Assembly (NCBI RefSeq): GCF_022984075.1
Contig: NZ_JALAAD010000001.1
Location: forward strand, 186,001-250,000
Source: Synechococcus sp. C9
Lineage (GTDB): Bacteria > Cyanobacteriota > Cyanobacteriia > Gloeomargaritales > Gloeomargaritaceae
Direction: 5' to 3'
Length of the DNA stretch: 64,000 nt
Shown in pieces: positions 41,843 through 53,646 of this stretch. Position numbers and translations under genes: made by a program. The notes under the pieces were generated by a model, which had not been told where the DNA came from, made no database searches, and was given only the letters and a program-made list of their open reading frames with translations. Every line of letters begins with the position of its first letter. Within the stretch, counting starts at the first letter, position 1.

Positions 41843-41986
41843 TTGGCAGTGACCCCTAGGGTGGACTTAGAAAGGTTGGGTTTTTCGTCTTCAAAAATAA
41901 CATGAATCTCCAAAAACTCCCTTCCTCTCACCGTAACCACTAGGTTGTTAGTGGTACCCGAAGTTATCTCTTTACCGTTACCATAA
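41839..41986 (-). pseudogene. 3' fragment of a gene cut by a dispersed repeat
   Basis: Reading on the minus strand from the repeat boundary, the frame is open for 48 codons (NNLVVTVRGREFLEIHVIFE to LSKSTLGVTAK) and ends at a TGA that overlaps the next gene's ATG. No start codon of its own is seen in frame. The 110-bp repeat element at 41987-42096 removed or separated the 5' part. The original product is unknown. Confidence 0.6.
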
Positions 41987-42096
41987 GGACACCTCTATTT
42001 ATTCACAACGATACAAAATTATCTCGCTGGAACCCTTATATTCAGGAGAACCAGAGATGGGGGCTACGCCCCTGCGACCTATTTTTAGAGGTGTCC
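41987..42096. repeat. Dispersed repeat with GGACACCTCTA ends and ATAA target duplication
   Basis: This 110-bp element has inverted ends GGACACCTCTATTTATTC and TATTTTTAGAGGTGTCC, a core GATGGGGGCTACGCCCCTGCG, and identical ATAA on both sides (41983-41986 and 42097-42100). It is the clearest complete member of this end type in the window. It has no coding capacity. Confidence 0.8.
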
Positions 42097-42120
42097 ATAA
42101 TTTATTTTTTTGATCCACTC

Positions 42121-49642: not shown

Positions 49643-49831
49643 ATAGTAATCCTAACTAAGTTTAGAGCAGGGGTCGCAGGGGCACTGCCCCCGTCTTGGC
49701 TTCTGGAGGATTTTGGTATGCCAATCAAATATAGCAATCCTAAATGAAAATAGAATAGGGGTCGCAGGGGCACCGCCCCCGTCCTTGGTTCTGGGAAATC
49801 TCTGTTCGCTAATTCAAGTAGGATTGCTATA
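49643..49831. repeat. Two dispersed repeats, TAGCAATCC-ended
   Basis: A decayed copy (ATAGTAATCCTAACTAAG at 49643, core GGGGCACTGCCCCCG) is followed by a complete copy at 49730-49831. The complete copy has ends TATAGCAATCCTAAATG and GTAGGATTGCTATA and a core GGGGCACCGCCCCCGTCC. The complete copy forms the 3' boundary of the broken HNH gene and supplies it with an artificial C-terminus. Confidence 0.8.
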
Positions 49832-50877
49832 TATTGTCTTCTGAGATTTTCTAAGGACAGCAACTCATCCTTACTTGAGAAACTTAAATCCAAAAGATAT
49901 GATTCTGCCCATTTATCCCCACTCATATATTCATTGGCAGTAACCAAACCAAGATGTTGTACTTGAATAAATTTATCAAAATAAATCTCACTTGGAACTT
50001 GATTTGACTTGGATGAATTGACTGATTTGGGAACAGGAATTAGATTCCATAATTGGTTGTGGGCTACAAATGTCCAAGGTAAGTAATGATCTAGAGAAAA
50101 ATTCTCTTGTACTATCTGATTTGAGTAGATGCAACGGAGATTTTCAGAATATTTGATAATAAGATTCTAAAAGTTAGTTTGTTGTGTTATTGGCTCCTAT
50201 GTGAGAGGAGGAAAAATTTTATTAGCAATGGCTGGCGTACTCGGATTTTTACCTTGCATATATTGTAAAAACTCCCATGCTGCCCATGCCCGAACAATTG
50301 AAAAATTCACTTTAAGATATTCAATCCACAGAGGGTGTAATATAATACTGTCTTTTGTAAGTTTATATAATGGTTTACGATTTTCAAATTCTTGCTCAGC
50401 AAGATCGCTAATCCTTTGATTAACCTGTTGGTCTTTAAGTCCTCTTAGCAGATCAGAAAAAAAGGGTCTGATCAATCTGTAAGGTACATATCTTAGTAGG
50501 TCTATAGTTGTCGAACTAAGACTACATTGAGAGATAATTTCTCTTATCTTTTCCTGTTCATTTTGCGAGACTCCTGACAAATATTTATCAATTTTTAACT
50601 CATTTCTAAGTGTATCAAGCTCCCTGGCAATCATATCTTGTGAACCGAAAGATAAATTAAAAACAGAATGAGGATACCAAGCGATTGCTAGCATTCCGAC
50701 CAAAATATCCTTAAACCTAAATAAATCTTGATCAAACTGACTTCTCTCTAATAACTGCATAATGCTCAATAAAAAGAGGAATTTATAGGAATTAGTCCTA
50801 TCACTAAATATACTAGAGAGTACAGAGATATTTAGATATTTTGAGTGTGGCAACTGGTATAAATTTTTATTTTCCAT
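49832..50877 (-). pseudogene. HNH endonuclease-domain protein broken by two in-frame amber stops
   Basis: The first 226 codons are open (start MENKNLYQLPHSKYLNI; AWYPHSVFNLSFGSQD). Then come two TAG codons in the same frame, at 50197-50199 and 50167-50169, and the frame runs on open to the repeat at 49831. The part after the stops is clearly meaningful: NLRCIYSNQIVQENFSLDHY, then LPWTFVAHNQLWNLIPVPKS and VNSSKSN, an HNH nuclease motif with its conserved D-H and N residues. The second TAG stands where NFWNL would be expected, that is a Trp codon changed to amber. The role may have been in DNA defence. AT-rich DNA suggests horizontal origin. Confidence 0.8.
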
Positions 50878-51009: not shown

Positions 51010-51585
51010 CTAAAACTTAGATAACTGTTCGACTGTTAACGCTAAGTGGGTTAGTAAGCCAGACCTGATTAGAGCTTGACCCATGTACTCAGTGGATGTG
51101 TAAGAGCGGTCTTTCAATAAACAAACCGTAACTTTCTGTTCTTCTGCGTCAATAATCCAATACTCAGGAATGCCCATCTGTAGATATTCTTCCCGTTTTT
51201 TTTGATAATCCCGCTCCTGATTTTCACTCCTTGGACTGACCACTTCGATAACCAGTAACAGTGGACGTTCGACAATGGCTGACTTGGGATTTTGTTTACG
51301 CAATGCTTCCCACTCTTCCCGATGCAGAATACATAAATCTGGTTCTCTTGACGAACGGATACCAGTGCGTACACTGATACCGCCAGGAAAAATTTCTAGG
51401 GATAGATTATGATCGTTTATGTATTGTTGAATTAGGGAATATAAAAAGCGAATAATTGCAATATGTTGGGGACTGGCGGTGGACATGATAATTAATTTCC
51501 CATCTTCTAATTCCACACGATCATCCTCCGCATCATAGTCCAAGAACTCTGCAAAAGTATATTTTTTGATCTGTGTTTGAGCCAT
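51010..51585 (-). CDS. Uma2-family (DUF820) PD-(D/E)XK nuclease-like protein
   Basis: This 191-residue protein belongs to the Uma2 family, which is expanded in cyanobacteria. The restriction-like catalytic pattern is visible: Glu in the N-terminal helix region (DRVELEDGKLIIM), Asp in REPDLCIL, E-X-V-S in VIEVVSPRS, and a Lys before EEYLQMGIPEYWIID. The cellular role of the family is not known; many copies sit in mobile or variable regions, as here between an HNH pseudogene and a transposon-like end. Confidence 0.88.
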   Translation of the reverse strand: MAQTQIKKYTFAEFLDYDAEDDRVELEDGKLIIMSTASPQHIAIIRFLYSLIQQYINDHNLSLEIFPGGISVRTGIRSSREPDLCILHREEWEALRKQNPKSAIVERPLLLVIEVVSPRSENQERDYQKKREEYLQMGIPEYWIIDAEEQKVTVCLLKDRSYTSTEYMGQALIRSGLLTHLALTVEQLSKF

Positions 51586-51723: not shown

Positions 51724-51799
51724 AGTATACAACTTTATTGTCGAGTTTACAACTTTATTGTCCAGTATACAAGTTTATTTTCTGCGAACAACACGTACA
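51724..51799 (-). mobile_element. Probable terminal end of a Tn7/TnsB-type transposon
   Basis: Three 20-bp units stand in tandem on the plus strand: AGTATACAACTTTATTGTCG (51724-51743), AGTTTACAACTTTATTGTCC (51744-51763) and AGTATACAAGTTTATTTTCT (51764-51783). Sixteen more bases follow, ending ...CGTACA at 51799. Read on the minus strand the end starts TGTACGTGTTGTTCGCAGAA and continues with ACAATAAAGTTGT repeats. A 5'-TGT terminus followed by tandem 20-bp AT-rich sites is the design of TnsB/TniA-type ends. It lies 17 bp beyond the glmS stop codon, close to where Tn7 inserts. No tns genes are in the window and I found no matching other end. Confidence 0.55.
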
Positions 51800-51816
51800 A
51801 CAGCTAATTTTTTCGA

Positions 51817-53646
51817 CTATTCCACAGTGACAGACTTGGCGAGGTTGCGGGGTTGATCCACATCTAAACCCCGATGGGCGGCAATGTAATATGCTAGCAA
51901 TTGTAAAGGAATGACTGTAACTAGAGGAGAGAGTAATTCGGGTACTTCTGGTATGGTTAAATTCACCTGAAATAGATCGGGAATTTCCATATTGGCGGCT
52001 GAACCCACCCCAATAATATGGGCTTCCCGCGCTCGGGCTTCTTGTACGTTACTCAAAACTTTGTCGTACACGGTTCCTGGGGTGGCAATGGCAATGACCG
52101 GCACACCCTTATCCAATAGGGCAATGGGACCATGTTTCATCTCTCCGGCAGGATAACCCTCGGCGTGAATGTAGCTAATTTCTTTCAGTTTCAATGCCCC
52201 TTCTAAAGCAATTGGAAAATTGATGCCCCGCCCTAAATAAATGACGTGTTGCACTTCTTGAAATTCATAGGCAAGTTGTTCAATGGCTGGTGCTTGAGTT
52301 TCTAAAATCCACTCCAATTGGTTGGGAATTTTTTGCAAATTGGCTAAGTATAATTCCAATTTTTCTTGGCTGAGGATTTGCCGTTGGTAGGCTAGGTCAA
52401 AAGCTAATAAATAAAAGGCAACGACCTGAGCGATAAAGGTTTTGGTGGCGGCTACCCCAATTTCAATTCCCGCACGGGTGTCTATCACATAGGGCACCAG
52501 GCGACCCAAACTACTCTCCGGGCGGTTGGTAATCCCCAATAACCAGGGGGTACCCGTCAACTGGCGGCTGGATTCCAAACTCAAGGCGGCAAGGGTGTCG
52601 GCGGTTTCCCCGGACTGGGTGACCCCAATGGTGAGGGTGCGGGGACGGTAGGGGGGCGGAGCATAGCGAAATTCGGACGCATAATGTACGGTGGTGGGTA
52701 CCTGCGCCACTTGCTGTAAAATGTACTGCCCGACCAAACCGGCGTGCCAACTCGTACCACAGGCGACAATTTGAATTTGCTCCACCTGGGGATACAATTC
52801 CTGCACGGGTCCCAGGGCAATCTGCCCGTCCAAAAGATGGGACTCCAACCCCTGGCGCAACACCCCCGGCTGGTCGTGGATTTCCTTGAGCATATAATGC
52901 TTGAACCCACCTTTTTCCACCAGGACGGGACTCCAGGTGAGCCGCTCAGGATAACGCCGCACCCGCTCCCCGGCAAAGCTGTACAGTTCCACCCCCAGGG
53001 GCGTGAGCCGGGCGAGTTCCCCATTTTCCAAACTCAAAAACGCCTGGGTATGATTCACCAAAGCGGTGGTATCGGAGGCGCAAAACAATTCCCCCTGCCC
53101 CAACCCCACCACCAACGGTGCCTGCTGACGGGCAATGATAATCTCATCCGGCGCATCGGTGGCAATGGCGGCAATGGCAAAAGCCCCCTCCAATTGGGCA
53201 ACGGTGAGACGCATCGCCTCGAGGAATGGGTAATTATTTTGTAAATACTGGCTCAACAGGTGGGGAATGACTTCCGTGTCCGTGTCAGAGGTAAACACAC
53301 AGCCCTGGGCAGTGAGTTCTTCCCGCAGGGGGCGATAGTTTTCGATAATGCCGTTTTGCACGACGGCGACCCGGTGCTGATTGTCGCAATGGGGATGGGC
53401 GTTGCGCTCTTCCGGCTTGCCGTGGGTTGCCCAGCGGGTGTGACCAATCCCGATGTGGCTGTTCGTATTCGGCAGACGGGCTTGGAGATTGTGCAGTTTT
53501 CCCGGTGCCCGCAGGACGTGAATTTCCCCGTCACTTTGCCAGGCAATCCCGGCGGAATCGTAACCCCGGTATTCCAGACGGCGCAAGCCTTCCATCAAAA
53601 TCGGGGTGGCTGATTGTAACCCCACATAGCCCACGATACCGCACAT
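51817..53646 (-). CDS. glmS: Glutamine-fructose-6-phosphate aminotransferase (isomerizing)
   Basis: GlmS makes glucosamine 6-phosphate from fructose 6-phosphate and glutamine, the first step to UDP-GlcNAc for peptidoglycan and lipid A. The 609-residue protein starts with the N-terminal nucleophile cysteine, MCGIVGYVG, and has HTRWATHGKPEERNAHPH in the glutaminase domain. Two sugar isomerase domains follow (VACGTSWHAGLVGQY, VTQSGETADTLAAL, KEISYIHAEGYPAGEMKHGP), and the protein ends AKSVTVE. The last codons are the sequence that TnsD-type targeting proteins recognise in other bacteria; a transposon-like end lies just past the stop. Confidence 0.97.
   Translation of the reverse strand: MCGIVGYVGLQSATPILMEGLRRLEYRGYDSAGIAWQSDGEIHVLRAPGKLHNLQARLPNTNSHIGIGHTRWATHGKPEERNAHPHCDNQHRVAVVQNGIIENYRPLREELTAQGCVFTSDTDTEVIPHLLSQYLQNNYPFLEAMRLTVAQLEGAFAIAAIATDAPDEIIIARQQAPLVVGLGQGELFCASDTTALVNHTQAFLSLENGELARLTPLGVELYSFAGERVRRYPERLTWSPVLVEKGGFKHYMLKEIHDQPGVLRQGLESHLLDGQIALGPVQELYPQVEQIQIVACGTSWHAGLVGQYILQQVAQVPTTVHYASEFRYAPPPYRPRTLTIGVTQSGETADTLAALSLESSRQLTGTPWLLGITNRPESSLGRLVPYVIDTRAGIEIGVAATKTFIAQVVAFYLLAFDLAYQRQILSQEKLELYLANLQKIPNQLEWILETQAPAIEQLAYEFQEVQHVIYLGRGINFPIALEGALKLKEISYIHAEGYPAGEMKHGPIALLDKGVPVIAIATPGTVYDKVLSNVQEARAREAHIIGVGSAANMEIPDLFQVNLTIPEVPELLSPLVTVIPLQLLAYYIAAHRGLDVDQPRNLAKSVTVE

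Follow-up and report, generated by a model that had tools for sequence, protein, structure and literature searches.

A probable right-end relic of a glmS-homing Tn7-like transposon beside glmS in a Gloeomargarita genome

The window, that is the whole stretch of 64,000 nucleotides analysed here, is part of contig C1 (C1:186001-250000) of a 2.96-Mb genome (G000). It encodes on the minus strand a glmS gene (51817..53646), the product of which has Pfam SIS and GATase domains and the C-terminus RNLAKSVTVE before the stop, and whose 3' end is the reference point of the Tn7 attachment site. Just 3' of the glmS stop codon lies an array of three 20-bp direct repeats (51724-51783), with units at 51724-51743, 51744-51763 and 51764-51783; alignment of the units gives a mutual identity of 85-90% and bears out the three tandem units of the original prediction. 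Such a triplet occurred in 0 of 300 simulated 2-kb pieces of matched composition. On its other side, the array adjoins an island of 2 kb with a G+C content of 36%, versus 54% for the window. This island holds only (i) an open Uma2-family nuclease gene (51010..51585, minus strand; Pfam PF05685, 3.6e-34; PADLOC candidate defence model PDC-S03, 4.8e-61) and (ii) an HNH nuclease-related pseudogene (49830..50877, minus strand) with two in-frame stops, the first at 50197-50199, past both of which the frame runs on. The earlier reading of nuclease-type cargo devoid of transposition genes is therefore accurate. The inner edge of the island is formed by a dispersed repeat (49700..49830).

The three units were scored with an end-site weight matrix built from 22 units of tnsA-bearing elements, all from outside Gloeomargarita. 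They correspond to three putative TnsB-binding sites on the minus strand, namely, from the outermost to the innermost, site 1 (GAAAATAAACTTGTATACT, 51764..51782; 27.2 bits), site 2 (GACAATAAAGTTGTAAACT, 51744..51762; 22.3 bits) and site 3 (GACAATAAAGTTGTATACT, 51724..51742; 23.5 bits). In comparison, the top score in a simulated background of 30 strands of 64 kb (1.9 million positions) is 17.3 bits. No further position in the 64-kb window reaches at least 12 bits with this matrix, and no left end above this score lies in the window. A copy of the unit with one mismatch at C1:2087749 is a solitary chance match.

In intact reference ends, the first site follows without a gap upon TGT and five further nucleotides. 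With TGT starting 8 nt ahead of the first site in these ends, the terminus in the window is the octamer TGTTCGCA (51783..51790, minus strand), whose outermost transposon base is 51790; it shares 7 of its 8 letters with the terminus TGTTCGCG of a Pelotomaculum element. The TGTAC at 51799, proposed originally as the terminus, is ruled out by the same spacing and falls outside the element. Likewise, the distance to the glmS stop codon, first given as 17 bp, measures 26 nt with the corrected terminus (host spacer 51791..51816, minus strand). This distance is 25 nt in the sister genome described below, 25 nt in E. coli Tn7 and 22-27 nt in the reference elements, a range that leaves aside three glmS-adjacent tnsA loci with a more distant end type missed by the matrix (L061, L066, L067) and one locus that has the sites without a TGT at the expected position (L059). 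The correction also moves the expected 5-bp target duplication from 51800-51804, where it had been anticipated, to 51791..51795, where one copy would read ACACG on the plus strand. Its partner is not identifiable, the left end being missing here and the outermost left site being lost in the sister genome. The flank of the only left end found elsewhere in the genome, on contig C2, reads GCAGT, whereas the right end at glmS is flanked by CGTGT. Because the partner end is lost and the flank on contig C2 is unequal, no target duplication can be shown.

Arrays of this kind are found beside complete sets of transposition genes. Indeed, a cyanobacterium of another family (G022) encodes tnsA, tnsB, tnsC, tnsD and a second tniQ directly behind glmS, with a right end carrying a matching kind of array 26 nt past the glmS stop codon. 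With the TnsA of this element as query, tnsA was found in 21 of 390 genomes of the class, and many of these loci adjoin glmS and have three or four units with a period of about 20 bp beside tnsA. By convention, the tnsA-adjacent end is the right end. In Tn7-type elements, the right end adjoins the transposition genes and the TnsD target, and TnsB sites are tightly spaced at the right end and spread out at the left (PMC11406308). The element of E. coli, Tn7, whose attachment site attTn7 lies at glmS, resembles the locus in the window by its TGT terminus, by a right end turned towards glmS (25 nt, compared with 26 nt here) and by closely packed TnsB-type sites (GACAATAAAGTCTTAAACT in Tn7, GACAATAAAGTTGTAAACT in the window). 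It differs in having four partly overlapping 22-bp sites according to the literature, as opposed to three sites with a 20-bp period, and the window holds a relic without tns genes that has lost its left end at glmS. The Tn7-like elements inserted at glmS in cyanobacteria (G022, G175, G130, G264 and others) share the 20-bp-period sites, the TGT plus five nucleotides and the position relative to glmS; their termini are of the TGTAAAAC type, unlike TGTTCGCA, and they have kept their transposition genes.

The group of glmS-inserted cyanobacterial elements includes type I-B1 CRISPR-associated transposons (CASTs), and its intact members possess tnsD and a second tniQ besides tnsABC. It is therefore conceivable, albeit rather unlikely, that the right end in the window stems from a type I-B1 CAST and not from a plain Tn7-like element. 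Type I-B1 CASTs, which are known from no other group than the cyanobacteria, are close relatives of Tn7 that home to glmS (PMC11406308), and two TniQ-domain genes are present in several of the glmS-inserted cyanobacterial elements. However, the 2-kb island that has been retained contains the Uma2 gene and the HNH pseudogene only, with no linked cas gene or guide, and the closest terminus outside Gloeomargarita among those compared (24 of its first 27 nt alike) belongs to a Firmicutes host. This terminus is that of a relic in a Pelotomaculum MAG (DNIT01000056.1, L081), a decayed element of about 3.2 kb with its TGTTCGCG end 24 nt past the glmS stop codon, which, unlike the relic in the window, has kept broken tnsA and tnsB genes and a three-site left end.

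The 3' flank of glmS was compared in 28 readable cases from the genus and the class (27 besides that of the window), and sites within 300 nt occur only in the window genome, the sister genome (G002), G004 and G022. In G004, a single unit stands 150 nt off, behind a MITE-like insert. Since only four of the 28 flanks carry sites, the objection that the repeats are conserved behind glmS in the absence of any insertion falls; relatives without the element have no repeats there, nor do the repeats flank an unrelated small IS. The description of this flank as the classic Tn7 attachment region holds as well, intact Tn7-like elements sharing both the position and the type of end. A regulatory origin of the repeats, as operators or iteron-like sequences that serve glmS or the Uma2 gene and have no role in transposition, would fit AT-rich direct repeats located upstream of Uma2. 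This explanation is nevertheless extremely improbable, as the array, the terminus and the spacing recur beside intact tnsA operons in unrelated genera and the repeats are missing in relatives that have glmS without the element.

Other repeats were observed in these regions. The MITE-like repeat of G004 (L011/L043, 415.0-415.2 kb) has the ends GGACAYCTCTA...TAGAGGYGYCC and separates glmS from one surviving right-end unit with the terminus TGTAAGCA; a MITE-like repeat with the same ends is present in the window at 41985-42100. In G006 (L013), CRISPR-like repeats (GTTGTCCCCACGCATGTGGGG) start about 10 nt past the glmS stop codon.

The sister genome G002 (Gloeomargaritales VI4D9), a close relative that puts the window genome within Gloeomargarita or beside it, contains an island that is 88% identical to that of the window over 1.9 kb, with a glmS gene that is 95% identical. 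Its matching right end (terminus TGTACGCA) lies 25 nt past the glmS stop codon, and both cargo genes are present, the HNH gene (HNH_4, 4.5e-09) being frameshifted. The insertion was thus inherited, since the island is common to both genomes. In G002, two inner, inverted left-end sites stand 3 kb from the right end, behind a 5'-truncated cysteine-desulfurase-like gene, and the outermost site is missing. Similarity between the two islands ends at about 49830, in the dispersed repeat, and the left end of the window copy is gone; the remainder of the element was probably lost at this repeat. The dispersed repeat (TAGCAATCCTACTTGA...GGACGGGGGC...) is found in many places in G000 and G002 and stands at the edges where the relics are broken off, and a REP-like piece adjoins the left end in G002.

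The right end and the inverted left-end sites of G002 bracket about 3 kb without tns genes, as would be expected of a small non-autonomous Tn7-like element, made up of a right end, cargo and a left end and mobilizable by the TnsABC of a visiting element. Several observations speak against this and leave it little probability: the chromosome of the window genome has no left end near the right end, the outermost left site of G002 is gone, the cargo is broken in both genomes, and tnsA is absent from G000-G007, that is from the window genome and from all seven related genomes searched (0/7).

Inverted copies of the unit, which had been suggested as a check, exist in the window genome as a three-site left end on contig C2, although none lies near the right end on the chromosome. 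This left end, the only one found in G000 (C2:18265-18414, L108), is complete, with three sites spaced 67 and 56 bp and the terminus TGTATGCG, and belongs to the same Tn7-like family. Contig C2 (86.9 kb) is plasmid-like and carries, by reading, parA and cas genes; the left end adjoins a piece read as the end of HsdS, and no right end was found on this contig. A second orphan left end of the same family is present in G002 (C1:1840900-1841042, L111; terminus TGTCAGTG). It lies upstream of a putative DNA polymerase III delta gene (holA by reading).

The genome also has tnsB, tnsC and tniQ, for which a search had been suggested, but in a different element with other ends. The sole tnsB and the sole tniQ of G000 are indeed in this separate element (C1:2668129-2688717), which was considered as a partner of the relic and discarded, since its ends (TGTACAATCTCAAATT) have no site in common with it. 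In brief, this element (L006, L007) spans 20.6 kb between TGTACAATCTCAAATT ends with a 5-bp duplication (GCCAT), and encodes a tnsB split into two ORFs, a tnsC of 273 aa and a tniQ of 164 aa, with restriction-modification and helicase cargo. Its sizes resemble those of type V-K CASTs, and no Cas12k was seen.

Two further scenarios, which even together have only a slim chance of being correct, are that the right end on the chromosome and its counterpart on contig C2 are the halves of one element split by recombination, or that the solo end has been kept for the protection of glmS. In the first case, a Tn7-like element would have moved DNA between the plasmid and the chromosome, breaking in the act. 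In the second, bound TnsB would shield glmS from further Tn7 insertions by cis-acting target immunity.

In summary, the repeats very probably represent the right end of a glmS-homing Tn7-like (TnsABC+TnsD) transposon that is now an immobile relic. The original prediction of a Tn7/TnsB-type end, relic or solo, lacking transposition genes, is supported by intact tnsABCD elements (e.g. those of G022 and G175) and by E. coli Tn7. The locus is assigned as a relic of such an element and not as a complete member, because no left end lies near the right end in the window. By analogy with Tn7 (PMC11406308), TnsD would have bound the 3' coding end of glmS in the common ancestor of this Gloeomargarita and VI4D9, which presumably received the insertion, and TnsC would then have recruited TnsA and TnsB on the transposon ends, so that the right end, facing glmS, could be joined about 25 nt downstream. 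The element was probably then eroded by deletion and repeat insertion, which took away its transposition genes, the greater part of its cargo and, in the window genome, the left end at glmS. The right end is left on its own, with one open and one broken cargo gene, and can no longer move.

The kind of element is already known, and the case in the window is a further, decayed member. A literature search retrieved no description of solo or remnant Tn7 ends at glmS, and a search on Gloeomargarita transposons returned nothing on such an element. The known mechanism of transposition is unchanged by this relic. It provides a simple rule for recognizing orphan Tn7 ends: at 22-27 nt from the glmS stop codon, TGT and five nucleotides lead into 20-bp sites. 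Gloeomargarita is considered the closest lineage to plastids. The relic indicates that glmS-homing Tn7-like elements reached this lineage, though the genomes searched there are without tnsA today.
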